In this document: positions 26,680 to 34,917 of the stretch, one piece after another
How positions within the stretch are numbered: position 1 is the stretch's first letter
How the letters are laid out: every line of letters starts with the position of its first letter
From: Desulfobacteraceae bacterium
GTDB lineage: Bacteria > Desulfobacterota > Desulfobacteria > Desulfobacterales > Desulfosalsimonadaceae
DNA length: 64,000 bases
Direction: 5' to 3'
Assembly: GCA_011390465.1 (NCBI GenBank)
Contig: JAABSH010000001.1
Span: 1 to 64,000 of the forward strand
Position numbers and translations under genes: made by a program
Notes under the pieces: model-generated
What the model was told of the DNA's origin: nothing
Databases searched by the model: none
What the model saw: only the letters and a program-made list of their open reading frames with translations

Positions 26680-29109
26680 TTAATTGCAAAAGCCAGTGTC
26701 AAATCTGCTGTAGCCGCTTGCCCCCCAGGAATTCCGGGCTTTTACCCAGTAATAATAGGTGTTGCCGCAGGATCCTTTGGTATCTTCAAAGGCTGTTCCC
26801 GTGACATAACCAATACGAATCGGATTGCCGCCCTCGGACACCAGCTTTGTCGCCTGCCAGATTTCATACCCTGCAATACCACCGGATAGTGATGCTTCCC
26901 AACTGACAGACACCTTTCCGGAAACCGTGCCATCTGTTGCGACAACATCAGTCGGCGCCGCCGGTGGCACAGACGGGGTGCCCACATAGCCGGTGGCAAA
27001 CTTGCTGAACCTGCTGATGCCCCAGGAATTCCGGGCTTTGACCCAATAATAATAGAGAGTGCCTTCCTGTACGTTTGAATCCTCATAAAAAGTTTCCGAC
27101 ACCGTGGCAATTTTATCCAGATTAAAATCCAGATATGCCGGTATCGTTGCCCGGTAAATTTCATACACCAGGGTTCCGGACGATTCAGCCCAGGCAATGG
27201 TCACTCCATTGCCTTCCCCTTCAGATGCCTCTACATTATTTGGAACGGGAGGCTTGGTGCCGAAATCTCCTCTGTAACCGGTGGTAAACATGCTGAATTT
27301 GCTGACGCCATCCGCATTTCTGGCTTTTACCCAGTAATAATAGCGGGTACCAGCCTGGGCATTCGTATCACTATAAGACAAACCTGTTATGGATGCCGCA
27401 ATCTGCTTTGGGGTCGCACCGGTCCAGGCGGGCATTTCAGAACGAAAAATCATATAAGAATCCGCACCAGTGGATACATTCCAGCTCACTTCTATACCAT
27501 CGGCAGATGCATTTGCCGTTACGCCTGTGGGAGCAGTGGGCGGGTCCTCCTGGGCAGATCCAGAATCATTGACTGTAACGGTAACCGTTGCCGTATCTGT
27601 AGCACCGTCATCATCCGTTACGGTTAAAGCAAATGTCAGCATTGTCGCATCGCTGACCTCCGGCGCTTTAAAGGTGGGTTTCACCGCAGACGCGTTGAAT
27701 GTTACATCCGGTCCGGCGGTCTGGGTCCACTGGCGATTCACAATATTACCATCAGTATCTGTGGAACCGGAACTGTCAAGAAATACCGTGGCGCCTTCGG
27801 TCACGTTCTGATTATCTCCCGCATCCGCCCGGGGGGAATCGTTGGTTCCTGGTATGACCGTAATTTTTACATAATCCGTATCTGATTCACTGCCATTATC
27901 AGTCACAGTCAACGTATAAATAACCCATCCTTCTTTGCTGGGGGCGGTAAAAGAAGGTGTCACACCACTTAACGTTGCTGGAAACGTCCCGACACCGCCG
28001 GAAGCATTCCATTGATAAGAAACCATTGAACCTTCAGGATCTGTTGACCCGGATCCATCCAGAGTTACTTTCTGGCCAAAGGTAACCGTCTGATCTAAGC
28101 CGGCATCCGCGTTTGGTTTGGCATTATTCCATGATACACTGACTGTTACACTGTCCGTGTCCTTGTCGCCTTGATTGTCCGTAACTGTCAGATGGAAAAC
28201 CAGCCTGTCATTCCCCCCGTTTAAATCCGGCGCCTGAAACGTGGGTTGTGCTGTCTTGTGGTTTGAAAGGGAAACGGTGGCCCCCTCAACCTGGTCCCAT
28301 AAAAAGCTAACCGCCCCCCCGTCCGGATCAGAACCCTGACCACGAAGGGTTACAATGGAATTTTCATTCACATTCTGATCATCCCCGGCATAGGCCATGG
28401 GTGCCAGGCTGGTGCATCCGGCGCTGTCCTGGCCTGAGGCAAAGACATCGTAGCCCTGCGCCATCCAGTCATCCAGGCCATCGTTCATATAAGACACCAA
28501 ATTAAATCCCTGTCCGGCCAGATAAGTGGCAGCAGACAGGCTTTTGGTCCCTGTCTGATCATAAATCAGAATATCATGGTTTTTAAAGTTGTTTAAATTC
28601 GTGGTGCTGGTGGAAAAATTATTCGCCCCGCTGTTCCAGACGTAATTCTTGGCACACAGCATGTGACTCTGGGCATAGTCAGATGCACTGCTTACATCCA
28701 GAACCAATAGGTTCTGACTGCCATCAATCAAATTTTTTGCTTCATGAAGGCTGACCAGGTCTGTTTTTACCTTAAAATAAGCCGTCACGGTTTTACTGGT
28801 ATTCATTGTTAAAGTGGCGGGGTTGGCGCTTCCCCCCAGATCACCACCCCACCGGTCGAATTTATACTGTCCCAACGGAACGGCCTGCATTGTCAATCTG
28901 GTGCCGCTGGAATACCCGCATGAACCTGTATATACCGTTCCATTTACTTTTACATTTCCTGTTCCCGCTGGACTGACAATCACGGTCAGATTAGAAGACC
29001 CTCACCCGGCGGCATCATTGGCTATGACGGTATGAAATGCCATTATGGCAAGTAACGACATAAAAAAAATCATACTCTGGGACCGGCAGTTCCATTTTTT
29101 TACCATCAT
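26680..29109 (-). CDS. Exported multidomain rhodanese-like/PKD/FN3 protein, interrupted by in-frame TGA
   Basis: From ATG at 29109, with AAGGAG 6 nt upstream, a signal peptide (residues 1-30, ending TVIA) is followed at codon 36 by TGA (29002-29004); the same frame then runs uninterrupted to 26680, 809 residues if read through. The remainder has an InlB-like bacterial repeat (about 40-115), a rhodanese-like domain (about 120-230), three PKD domains (230-510) and three fibronectin type III domains (515-805). The rhodanese active-site Cys is absent; ILIYDQTGTKS stands where a Cys-containing loop is expected. FN3 units share a repeated YYYWVKARN motif. It may be a nonsense mutant, a selenoprotein or a restart from GTG 28983 without signal peptide. 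The domain calls are firm; expression is not. Confidence 0.75.
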
Positions 29110-29454
29110 TTTACTCCTTAGATAAAAATACTTCAAAATTCATTAAAATTTAAAGCCCTGTAAATCAAAACGCAGGCAATCATAAAAAAACACCACTTGC
29201 TTGTCAAACAGTAAAACCAATGCAAAACACTGCCAATGCAAAACACTATAGATAAAAATTAAAATAGCGCTTTGCAAAAGCCCTTGATAAACAAATTGAT
29301 AAACAAATTGATAAACGAGACAGATCGTATCTATCACATTGTGACAGACAAAGAAACAATAAAATAAAAAAGAAAAACAGTCTATGGCAAAATTTATAAA
29401 CACTGTTTTATGAAAATTTCATTGTTATGACTTGAAAAATAATGTTTACATATA
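29110..29454. other. AT-rich intergenic region with short direct repeats
   Basis: Three copies of TTGATAAACAAA (29284-29319, the last ending CGAG) and two copies of CCAATGCAAAACACT (29217-29231, 29233-29247) lie between the divergent exported-protein and metF genes. The minus-strand open frame here is largely these repeats and AT-rich sequence, so I do not call a gene. Confidence 0.6.
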
Positions 29455-30456: not shown

Positions 30457-33400
30457 ATGAATCTGAAGTCCGCATCCCCTCACAGCGAACCTGAAAAAAA
30501 GACGGTCGGGGCCGCCATGGTGGTCGGGGCCGGTATCGCCGGCATGCAGTCCGCCATTGATCTGGCCAATTCCGGCTATTATGTTTATCTTCTGGAAAAA
30601 TCCACCGCCATCGGCGGTCTCATGGCCCAGCTGGACAAAACCTTTCCCACCAATGACTGTACCATGTGAGTCATCTCCCCCAAACTGGTCGAGGTCGGCC
30701 GGCATCTGAACATTGAGCTTAAAACCGGAACGGAAATTCTGGCGCTCGAAGGAGCACCCGGCAATTTCAAGGCAAAAATCCGCCAGGAAGCCCGGTATGT
30801 GGATCTTGCCAAATGCACCAGCTGCGGCGAATGCGCCAAAGTCTGCCCCATCCAAGTTCCGGACGAACAGGACAGAGGCCTTTCCAATCGCAAGGCCATT
30901 TTCAAAAAATACCCCCAGGCCATCCCCGGGGCCTATGCCATCAGCAAACGCGGCACCGCTCCCTGCAAAGCCACCTGTCCGGCCCATGTCAGCATCCAGG
31001 GGTATATTGCCCTCATCAATGAAGGCAAATATTTTGAAGCCCTCAAACTGTTCAAGCAGGATCATCCGTTTCCGGGAATCTGCGGCCGGGTTTGCCACCA
31101 TCCCTGTGAAGGGGTCTGCACCCGGGGCGATTATGACGAATCCCTGGCCATCCGCGAACTGCACCGGTTCCTGGCGGACTGGGAGCAAAATCAGGCATCC
31201 CCCTATGTACCGGCAGTTTCTGAAACCCGATCCGAAAAAGTGGCGGTGGTCGGGGCCGGGCCGGCCGGCCTTGCGGCGGCCTATTTCCTCACACTTCGGG
31301 GATACCAGGTGACCATTTTTGAAAAACTGCCCGTGGCCGGCGGCATGATGGCCGTGGGCATTCCCGAATACCGCCTGCCGAGAAATATTCTGGCCGCGGA
31401 AATCGAAACCATCCAAAAAATGGGCGTTGTCATCAAAACCAACACCACCTTTGGCAAGGACATCACCCTGGAAAGCCTCAAGACGGATGGATTTTCCGCG
31501 GTCTTCATGGCCATCGGCCTCCACGGGGGCCGGCGCCTGGGTGTTGAAAACGAAGACGCAGACGGCGTGCTTCAGGGCGTTGACTTTCTGCGGGATGTGG
31601 CCATGGGCAGGGAAGTCGCCATTGGCAAAGAGGTGCTGGTAATCGGCGGCGGCAACGTGGCCATTGATGTTGCCCTGTGCGCCCGGCGAAAAGGCGCGGA
31701 AAATGTCACCCTGGTCTGCCTGGAATCCCGGGACGAAATGCCGGCATGGGAACATGAAATCCAGGAAGCCCTGGAAGGAGAAGTAAAAATTGTCAACAGT
31801 TTTGGGCCAAAAGATTTTTTTATTGATAAAAGCAACCGGGTATCCGGCATTGAGTTTAAAACCTGCACCGCGGTATTTGACGAAAACGGAAAATTCAACC
31901 CCCAGTTTGATGAAGCTGCGTGCGAGGCGTTTTTCGGGGACACCATTATTATCGCTATTGGTCAGTCCACCAATACGGACTATCTTGCGGATCAGAATAT
32001 CGCCCTTTCCCGGGTGGGAGGACTCACCGCAGATCCCGTGACCCTACAGACCCCCACCCCCTGGGTATTTGCCGGCGGTGATGCCTTTTACGGCCCCAAA
32101 TCCGTGGTGGACGCGGTGGCCTGCGGCAAGGAAGCCGCAGAAAGCATTCACCGGTTCATCAACAATCTGGATCTCGCCGAAGGCCGCAAAAAAACCTGGG
32201 AATATGAAAAACCCGACATCAAAAACGAGCCCCTGAAACCCCGGACACCGATCCGGTGCCTGGATCCAAAAGCCCGGGAATGCAACTTTCTGGAAGTGTC
32301 CTTTGGGTACGATGAAACCGAAGCCAAAAATGAAGCCGGGCGGTGCCTGAAATGCGGCATCTGCTCCGAATGTTATCAATGCCTGGATGCCTGCATGGCC
32401 GAGGCCATTGATCACAACCAGCAGGCAGTGGAAGAAACCGTTGAGGTCGGGTCTGTTATTCTGTGTCCGGGCAATGACGTTTTCGATCCATCCGTGCTGG
32501 ATGATATTTATCATTATACCACCCATCCCAATGTGCTGACCAGCCTGGAATTTGAACGCATCCTGTCTGCTTCCGGCCCCACCATGGGGCATCTGGTGCG
32601 GCTGTCCGATGAAAAAGAACCGCAAAAAATCGCCTGGCTCCAGTGCATCGGTTCCCGGGACACCAATCGCTGCGGCAACGATTACTGCTCATCGGTCTGC
32701 TGCATGTATGCCATCAAAGAGGCCATTATCGCCAAGGAGCATTCCAAACACGATCTTGACACCGCCATCTTTAACATGGACATCCGTTCTTTTGGCAAAG
32801 ACTATGAAAAATACTATCTCCGGGCCAAAGAGGACGGCGGGGTGCGGTTTATCAAAGCCCGCATCCATACCATTGATCCCATACCGGAAACCGACAACCT
32901 GCTGCTCCGGTACGCGGATGAAGCCGGCACGCTCCATGATGAGGAATTCGACATGGTGGTGCTTTCCGTGGGGCTCCAGGTGTCTGAATCCGCCATTCGC
33001 ACCGCCAATCTGCTAAACATCGAGCTTAACAAAAATAATTTTGCCGTGACCGGGCCGTTTAATCCCACGGAAACCAGCCGGCCCGGGGTTTTTGCCTGCG
33101 GCATTTTCCAGGGACCCAAAGATATTCCTTCCTCGGTCACCGAAGCCAGCGCCGCAGCCTGCGCCGCCGGCCGGTATATGGCAAAGGCCCGGGGCACCCG
33201 CATCAAGCAGGTGGACATCCCGGATGAAATTGATGTGAGCGGTCCCCCGCGCATCGGTGTGTTTGTCTGTGACTGCGGCATCAACATTGCCGGTGTGGTG
33301 GATGTGCCTGATGTCACGGAATACGCCCGAACCCTGCCCAATGTCGTGTATTCCGGCGAGAATCTCTTTACGTGCAGTCAGGACGCCCAGGACCAGATGA

Positions 33401-34917
33401 AGGAAATCATCAAAGAACACCGGCTCAACCGCATTGTGGTCTCTTCCTGTACCCCCCTGACCCATGAACCCATTTTCATGGACACCCTGGAAAAATGCGG
33501 ATTGAACAAATATTTGTTTGAAATGGCCAATATCCGGAACCAGGATTCCTGGGTCCATGCAAACAATCCGGCAAAAGCCACTAAAAAAGCCAAAGACCTG
33601 GTCCGGATGTCCGTGGCCCGGGCCGGGTCTCTCAAACCACTGCATGAGCGCAGGATTCCGGTTACCTACCGGGCCCTTATCGTGGGGGGCGGCGTTGCCG
33701 GGATGAATGCAGCGTTAGGTATTGCAGACCAGGGATTTGAGGTGGTGCTGGTGGAAAAAGAAGCGGATCTGGGCGGGCTTTCCAGACGGCTTACCCGCAC
33801 CATTGAAGGCGCGGACATTCCGGAATATCTTTCCCGTCTCGTTGAAAAGGTTAAACATCATCCCGGGATCCAGGTCCTCACCCAGTCTCTGATTGTGGAT
33901 TTTTCAGGTTTTAAAGGCAACTTTAAAACAGAAGTCCTGGTCGGACCGGGCATGTATGAACGTAAAATTGATTCCGGCGTGGTTATTCTGGCCACCGGCG
34001 GCAAGGAATACACGCCCAAAGAATTTCTCTACGGCCAGCATCCCGGCGTCATGACCCAGATCGAGCTGGCCGGCCGCCTTGAAGAAGACGGGGCCACAAC
34101 GGGTCTCGACCAGGTGGTCATGATCCAGTGCGTGGGATCCCGGAACAAAGAAAACCCCAATTGTTCCCGCGTCTGCTGCCAGGCTGCCATTAAAAATGCC
34201 ATCCATATCAAAGCGCTGAACCCGGATACCCAGGTATTTATTCTTTACCGTGATATCCGCACCTACGGGCTCATGGAAAAATATTACACCAGGGCCAGGG
34301 AGCTGGGGGTGTTCTTCTTCCGGTTCAAAGAAGCCGATCCGCCGGAAGTCACCCAATCGGGGGACGTGCTCACCGTCACCTTCACCGACCCTATCCTGGA
34401 CCGGAAACTCTCCGTGGACACGGACATTCTGGCCCTGAGCGCCGGCGTCCAGGCCGAGGACACCGAGGAACTGGCTTCTATCATGAAGCTGGGCCGGAAT
34501 GCGGAAAATTATTTTATTGAGGCCCATGTCAAGCTCCGACCCGTGGAAATGGCCACTGAGGGCATTTTTGTCTGCGGCACGGCCCACAGTCCCAAGCTGA
34601 TCAGTGAAACCATTGCCCAGGCCCAGGCTGCGGCATCCCGGGCCATCACCTTCCTGAGCCAGCCGTTTCTGACCCTCTCAGCGGTTACGGCCCGGGTGAA
34701 TTCGGAACTCTGCGCGTCCTGTCTGATCTGCGTCCGAACCTGCCCCTATAATGTGCCCCGAATCAACGAGGAAGGCGTCAGTTATATCGACGACGCCCTG
34801 TGTCAGGGCTGCGGGGCCTGCGTTGCCGAATGCCCGGCCAAGGCCATTGAACTGAACTGGTATGAAGACAACCAATTATTAAGCAAGGTGGATGCCTTAC
34901 TGGAAGGAGTGTTATGA
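30457..34917 (+). CDS. hdrA: Giant HdrA-type flavoprotein with GltD-like insert, selenoprotein (UGA at 30667)
   Basis: Read through the TGA at 30667-30669 this is one 1486-residue protein with Sec71 in NDCTM-U-VISPK, where HdrA proteins have a conserved Cys. Order: N-terminal FAD-binding GAGIAG (24-29), Sec motif, [4Fe-4S] Cys120/123/126/130, a GltD/NfnB-like insert with its own GAGPAG (about 266) and GGGNVA (about 398) sites for FAD and NAD(P)H, a CxxCxxC cluster near 630, then a second HdrA-like module (GVFVCDCG near 934, GGGVAG near 1074) and two C-terminal [4Fe-4S] sites (about 1419 and 1449). HdrA is the flavin-bifurcating subunit of heterodisulfide reductases. The insert suggests NAD(P)H as a donor or acceptor. 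The stop overlaps the mvhD start (ATGA). No hdrB or hdrC follows. Confidence 0.9.
30685..30702 (+). promoter_or_regulatory. Bacterial SECIS-like hairpin in hdrA
   Basis: CTGGTC (30685-30690) pairs with GGCCGG (30697-30702), with two G-U pairs, around the loop GAGGTC. The loop begins 22 nt after the UGA and its first base is G. It is inside the coding frame, as in known bacterial selenoprotein mRNAs. Confidence 0.65.

Follow-up and report, generated by a model that had tools for sequence, protein, structure and literature searches.

The first 64,000 nucleotides of contig JAABSH010000001.1 (Desulfobacteraceae bacterium, assembly GCA_011390465.1), i.e. the whole stretch analysed here and hereafter called the window, harbour on the minus strand a gene for a large, probably exported protein, the reading frame of which is crossed by a TGA at codon 36 (Table 1). 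A Shine-Dalgarno sequence precedes the start codon at 29109, a second ATG follows at 29106, and 773 open codons lie between the TGA and the stop at 26680-26682, with the protein ending in FDTGFCN. A hairpin, composed of CTGAC (28989-28985), the loop CGTGATT (28984-28978) and GTCAG (28977-28973), starts 12 nt past the TGA. The Shine-Dalgarno sequence, the ATG at 29109, the TGA with its 773 further codons and the hairpin had been described in an earlier, sequence-only reading of the same DNA, and each was recovered at its position. That reading had also placed a signal peptide upstream of the TGA and several folded domains behind it; the former agrees with a signal-peptide-like start, judged, as all signal peptides in this study, via hydropathy and by eye, and the latter correspond to Flg_new_2, rhodanese-like, PKD and fibronectin-III (fn3) domains in Pfam. 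In the mechanical ORF list of the window, the downstream ORF opens at GTG 28983, i.e. past the TGA.

In its own genome (G000), the gene sits between apbE and metF-hdrA, and the order metK, ApbE-like gene, selenocysteine (Sec) genes, metF and hdrA is also found in G004 and G008, with the neighbour labels based on reading of the sequences, except for the ApbE of the window (Pfam). The HdrA-type gene carries a TGA of its own in the motif NDCTM-U-VISPK (CxxU) and is split in the mechanical ORF list; a CxxU site is listed for HdrA selenoproteins in PMC13188914.

Table 1. Features of the locus, with the loci carrying the C-terminal tail discussed in the text
Feature	Position	Strand	Basis
CDS, predicted exported selenoprotein (codon 36 TGA read as Sec)	26680..29109	-	sequence; kept in relatives
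Shine-Dalgarno sequence AAGGAG	29114..29119	-	direct reading
Predicted signal peptide with c-region, MMVKKWNCRSQSMIFFMSLLAIMAFHTVIANDAAG	29005..29109	-	prediction; signal-peptidase-I-like sites
In-frame TGA, predicted Sec codon	29002..29004	-	TGA conservation and SECIS
bSECIS-type hairpin CTGAC-CGTGATT-GTCAG	28973..28989	-	bSECIS rules (PMC13188914); absent from the window's own minimum-energy fold
N-terminal InlB-B-repeat-like (Flg_new_2) domain	28768..28947	-	Pfam PF18998
Single Cys of the Flg_new_2 domain (residue 29, with Sec = 1), candidate Sec partner	codon 28918-28920	-	Cys counts
Rhodanese-like domain, Asp replacing the catalytic Cys (YDQTG)	28459..28749	-	Pfam PF00581, alignment, Foldseek
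Three PKD and three C-terminal fibronectin-III stretches	26683..28389	-	Pfam
HdrA-type gene	30457..34917	+	reading of the sequence
In-frame TGA of the HdrA-type gene	30667..30669	+	
GGCFI-tail loci	L147-L152, L154, L156, L157, L159, L162, L169, L171-L173		

The in-frame TGA among relatives

To find relatives, 60 related genomes were searched with the part of the protein downstream of the TGA as query, so that nothing in it would bias the search towards a stop. All ten loci that reach the N-terminus with upstream DNA, i.e. the window's own, L002, L003, L004, L005, L007, L008, L010, L012 and L022, combine a hydrophobic start with a TGA at the same position; L006 comes close to the TGA position but is cut by a contig end and stands outside these ten. 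The genome of the window has a second gene of the family (L033). Profiles of the N-terminal module were also used, one of 19 modules against 291 genomes of the order and one of 26 modules against 389 genomes of the class. With the latter, which was built from TGA-bearing members, all 32 stop-crossing matches at the Sec column among those listed cross a TGA, and none of them a TAA or TAG. No relative was found in the viral contigs searched, and a short DNA pattern for A-G-TGA gave 1,284 matches in the own genome and was of no use.

The resulting set comprises 33 genes from 17 genomes in five family-level groups, with a maximum of five copies in G144, four in G015, three each in G004 and G008, two each in G000, G006, G012, G014 and G194, and one each in G001, G003, G007, G009, G016, G087, G257 and G644. 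Since later members were found with tools expecting the module or a TGA, the presence of TGA in 33/33 genes is no independent evidence; this is given by the ten loci from the post-TGA query and by the 32 class-wide matches listed.

Seen alone, the window shows just one stop in a long open frame, and a recent nonsense mutation, an assembly or sequencing error or a phase-variable stop in an intact gene, all of which the earlier reading had allowed for, would produce the same picture. These origins are hardly credible given the relatives, as every one that reaches the site in the search with the post-TGA query carries the TGA, at 23-56 % identity to the window copy in the N-terminal module, and the same TGA recurs in MAG assemblies of several projects. 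Among the named relatives, 11 are MAGs that bear the labels Desulfobacteraceae, Desulfococcaceae, Desulfobacterales, Deltaproteobacteria or Desulfonema limicola, and the TGA is visible in seven of these 11 loci (nine genes); three others start downstream of the TGA and the fourth, L113, lies below the 150-codon limit of the script. One member of the set, L008 in G014, has a frame that ends 140 codons past the TGA, with homology continuing in another frame.

Cys homologues are usual for selenoprotein families. In this family they are nearly absent, with one found: the best-scoring stop-free match across the Sec column, among the matches listed, is a copy in G144 (G144:C9) with Cys near the site. 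Its spacer to the LTV motif is one residue shorter, the motif contains GTA and GAC, leaving four of the five core pairs and a degraded hairpin, and the domain Cys described below is missing. The outcomes that the sequence-only reading had set against readthrough were looked for; the Cys copy is a paralogue in another genome, with its degraded hairpin. Among the same-genus matches read, none has Cys at the site, and a distant one (G006:C43) has a signal peptide with neither Sec nor Cys, as is also the case for the weaker matches in G165 and G194:C24, both with a signal-peptide-like start. In addition, weak non-Sec domain relatives in G094, G207 and G110 look like lipoproteins and have a Cys in that region, and the match in G244 is internal. 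These non-Sec relatives are the part of the weak matches that was read; other weak matches include G150 and G102.

The hairpin and the selenocysteine machinery

According to the bSECIS rules in PMC13188914, such elements have a loop of 3-9 nt with a G in its first two positions, a stem of 4-16 bp, a distance of 16-37 nt between UGA and loop and a minimum free energy of at most -7.5 kcal/mol. In the window, the apical loop starts 17 nt after the TGA. All 33 genes possess a hairpin with a 7-nt loop CGTGNNN, a stem of 5-7 bp and a spacing of 17-26 nt, i.e. within the rules on loop, stem, G and distance, as found by scripts that sought loops starting with CGTG. The spacing is 17 nt in most genes and reaches 26 nt where residues are inserted, so the distance varies in codon steps and the form of the hairpin is kept. 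An outer sixth pair (28990/28972) is U.U in the window and paired in 31 of the 33 genes. What had been called a weak SECIS-like shape is thus a constant feature of the family.

Codon choice is a stronger test of the hairpin than covariation. Pairs 1 to 5 are formed in all 31 copies compared and pair 6 in 29, the exceptions being the window and L008. While the five core pairs were observed in 31/31 copies, 2,000 synonymous resamplings gave them in a mean of 4.66 copies and a maximum of 13, and the codons of the motif are close to fixed (GTG 31/31, GTC 30/31, CTG 30/31), with mixed usage further down the same genes. In the covariation alignment (33 rows, 18 distinct), three of the six pairs have changed on both sides, and 98.1 % of the cells are paired vs 93.6 % in shuffles and at most 53.7 % in slid controls. 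Of 500 shuffles, none reached the covariation score and one had as many pairs with changes on both sides, while 232 reached the measure of further pair types, i.e. without excess; the relatedness of the sequences weakens this shuffle control.

When used as a search pattern on 395 genomes of the phylum, the hairpin gave 32 places, spread over 28 genomes, compared with eight for the reversed control. Thirty of these places were read as loci, and the two others are a known member and an unread one. In five loci an open frame continues past an in-frame TGA; all five belong to the family, and L141 (G644) is a new member. L135 also has a TGA, but with a second stop.

Folding of 55 nt around the TGA placed the hairpin fully within the minimum-energy structure of 18 of 31 copies and partly in one, with the remaining 12, including the window copy, lacking it. 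The 45 nt of the window copy reach -7.6 kcal/mol through another structure, and L002, L003, L022 and L033 reach -9.8 to -12.1 kcal/mol with the hairpin in the fold. Compared with shuffles, two of these five copies show a gain in stability, namely L002 (z -0.90) and L033 (z -1.93), and three show none (the window copy, L003 and L022). As the LTVxVS motif of the protein is partly the SECIS itself, the data suggest an RNA element that shapes the protein it belongs to.

The genome of the window encodes SelA, SelB (twice over cut-off) and a SelD whose own frame contains a TGA, as well as two tRNA-Sec genes (anticodon TCA). A tRNA-Sec is present in all 30 genomes tested, including 15 of the 17 with the family. 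The two SelB and two tRNA-Sec genes of G000 lie at C59:7475-9367, C108:97974-99977 and C53:104684-104777, with one pair adjacent on C108. A second tRNA-Sec over cut-off occurs in six of the 30 genomes. A tie between the family and this second tRNA-Sec is unsupported: G004 and G144 carry family members but no second tRNA-Sec over cut-off, and G020 and G058 show the reverse, with no family match in the 60-genome search for G058 and none there or among the class-wide matches listed for G020. G130, likewise with a second tRNA-Sec, gave a single weak match in the 291-genome profile search.

Some readthrough is needed to explain the frame, and it could also be imagined as insertion of another amino acid, i.e. 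Trp via a near-cognate or suppressor tRNA, or as programmed readthrough. Several observations make this extremely improbable: the hairpin follows the bSECIS rules on loop, stem and distance, SelA, SelB, SelD and tRNA-Sec are present, the sole clear replacement at the site is Cys, and an HdrA-type gene with CxxU lies next door. We therefore consider, based on TGA conservation in MAGs of several projects, a hairpin of bSECIS form with compensatory changes, the codon constraint and the Sec machinery, that the TGA is very probably decoded as Sec in an exported protein (probability roughly 0.93). Readthrough, of which the sequence-only reading had said merely that it could not be dismissed, thus finds stronger support than was claimed for it.

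The predicted N-terminus and the domains behind it

All 33 proteins have a signal-peptidase-I-like small-x-small site 0-2 residues before Sec; the window has such sites directly before Sec and five residues earlier (VIA|ND). Therefore, going by predicted cleavage, the first residue of the mature protein should be Sec itself or one only a few residues away. The same site bears on the question of whether the TGA is the true stop of a short leader ORF, with the large protein starting at GTG 28983 without a signal. This GTG does open the downstream ORF and is invariant in 31/31 copies, but no Shine-Dalgarno sequence is seen before it, its position within the hairpin loop accounts for it, and an unrelated leader would not keep an in-frame signal-peptidase-I-like site just before the TGA in 33/33 genes. 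A start at 28983 is therefore very unlikely.

Signal peptides can be told apart by a strict lipobox pattern ([LVI][ASTVI][GAS]), a relaxed PS00013-like pattern and the signal-peptidase-I-like small-x-small pattern. As in bacterial lipoproteins, a Cys-like residue is predicted to stand at the start of the mature chain, or close to it, behind a signal peptide, and it might be asked whether Sec replaces the lipoprotein-signal Cys and serves as a lipidation site or other covalent anchor, which would be compatible with Sec decoding. The lipoprotein look of the weak non-Sec domain relatives in G094, G207 and G110, with their Cys in that region, points the same way. However, the strict lipobox was found before Sec in none of the 33 proteins and the relaxed pattern in seven, 11 have a charged residue at -3, and, in contrast to lipoproteins, the c-region fits signal peptidase I in 33/33. 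On the lipobox counts, lipidation was dropped as the main explanation, and we regard it as improbable.

The domain behind Sec offers a candidate partner. In 30 of the 31 proteins compared, residues 2-95 from Sec include Cys; 28 of them have a single one there, and L141 has none. The background of 0.87 % Cys after residue 95 would give 56 % per protein (binomial P 3.7e-7, ignoring relatedness). This Cys is found at residues 22-43 in 24 of the 31 proteins and elsewhere beside Sec (L002), at U+3 (L022), before the last strand (L097, L098, L099) or, in the first copy of L089, at another position. A U...C pair at one fixed position was dropped owing to this shifting, so only the weaker claim of a movable partner is left, and a selenenylsulfide between it and Sec is a tentative reading that we hold at somewhat less than even odds.

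Further downstream, the catalytic Cys of the rhodanese-like domain is replaced by Asp (YDQ[TNS]G) in nine of nine aligned members, with YDQDG in L036, which makes ordinary sulfurtransferase activity unlikely for the aligned members. An invariant Cys in [SG]H[MLI]LCA[KR]NY lies in this domain, and a second one (CTS) past it. Among 50 Foldseek matches listed, nearly all are of rhodanese type, and the AlphaFold2 model has a mean pLDDT of 81.4 and a pTM of 0.65. The module profile gave nothing convincing against solved structures (best E 0.0087). In the 18 of 33 proteins scanned, the downstream domains vary, i.e. PKD repeats, fn3, SdrD B-like, DUF5719 and several rhodanese domains, which suggests a module that heads repeat proteins of the surface or periplasm. 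L094 passes the cut-offs of the NCBIfam models for GlpE and choice-of-anchor U. Matches to PF16683 (transglutaminase elicitor family) lie near two Sec proteins, at L033:509-3091 (+) and L042:7573-9930 (-).

Many exported-looking proteins, among them several Sec proteins, end in a glycine- or serine-rich stretch followed by GGCFI and about 4-10 more residues (loci in Table 1). This tail resembles a short signal for sorting or attachment at the C-terminus. It is not specific to a Sec system, since none of the 16 listed frames with the tail has a Sec start.

Returning to Sec decoding, we propose that the hairpin 12 nt downstream directs Sec insertion at the TGA, that the signal peptide would then export the protein and that signal peptidase I would cut it, which would put Sec among the first three or so residues of the mature extracytoplasmic protein (at most about residue 6 in the window), at the edge of the InlB-B-repeat-like domain. 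Most likely, Sec and the single domain Cys would form a reversible Se-S bond, or Sec would attack an outside thiol or sulfane-sulfur substrate, which would give a long repeat protein of the surface or periplasm a redox-active head. Insertion, cleavage site, pairing and function are all deduced here from sequence. It is tempting, if speculative and on balance unlikely, to go further and see the signal peptide, Sec and InlB-B-repeat module as a portable N-terminal 'Sec head' on different surface repeat architectures, the free N-terminal Sec of which, with amine and selenol on one residue, would tether the proteins covalently, either to one another or to the cell surface, or exchange electrons or sulfur extracellularly. 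If true, attachment via lipoproteins or sortase would have a selenium-based counterpart here.

Relation to known selenoproteins

With other bSECIS selenoproteins, such as FdhA, SelD and HdrA, the family shares the in-frame UGA, a hairpin 16-37 nt downstream that has a G within the first two positions of its loop, and SelB with tRNA-Sec. The place of Sec differs: theirs belongs to a thioredoxin-like or metalloenzyme active site, whereas here it is predicted directly past a signal peptide, at a beta domain of a large repeat protein. The rhodanese-like domain of many family members recalls the rhodanese-like selenoproteins (forms 1-5 in Table 1 of PMC13188914, as well as NF041203 and NF045694 TsoB). 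In these, that table places Sec in rhodanese-related motifs, while here Asp occupies the catalytic position and Sec lies about 145 residues upstream in another domain; the proteins scanned score far below the cut-offs of NF041203 and NF045694. Proteins with InlB B-repeats (Flg_new_2, PF18998) and PKD or fn3 domains have the same domains, and non-Sec relatives exist in the same bacterial order, but those read lack Sec, and the N-terminal Sec module and hairpin mark the present family.

No selenoprotein model of NCBIfam 20.0 was over cut-off in the eight of 33 proteins scanned, nor NF049953 in 13 genomes. Table 1 of the 2026 catalogue PMC13188914, through which the families of Haft and Tolstoy 2025 and of Zhang and Gladyshev 2007 were compared, contains no family of such kind, and among the papers listed in our literature search there was none on an exported repeat-protein family with N-terminal Sec. 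Taken together, the genes very probably form a family of bacterial selenoproteins, absent from the catalogues searched, in which exported repeat proteins would carry Sec at the start of the mature chain or close to it.

ORF callers for which TGA is a stop would place the start past it, so that the signal peptide is lost and export is hidden; the mechanical ORF list of the window exemplifies this predicted annotation error. Most selenoproteins catalogued in PMC13188914 are redox enzymes, the Sec of which belongs to an active-site motif. Here, Sec appears to lie at the predicted start of the mature chain, or close to it, in long exported repeat proteins that number as many as five per genome, and the family may thus offer a simple system to test whether an N-terminal Sec survives export and what it binds.
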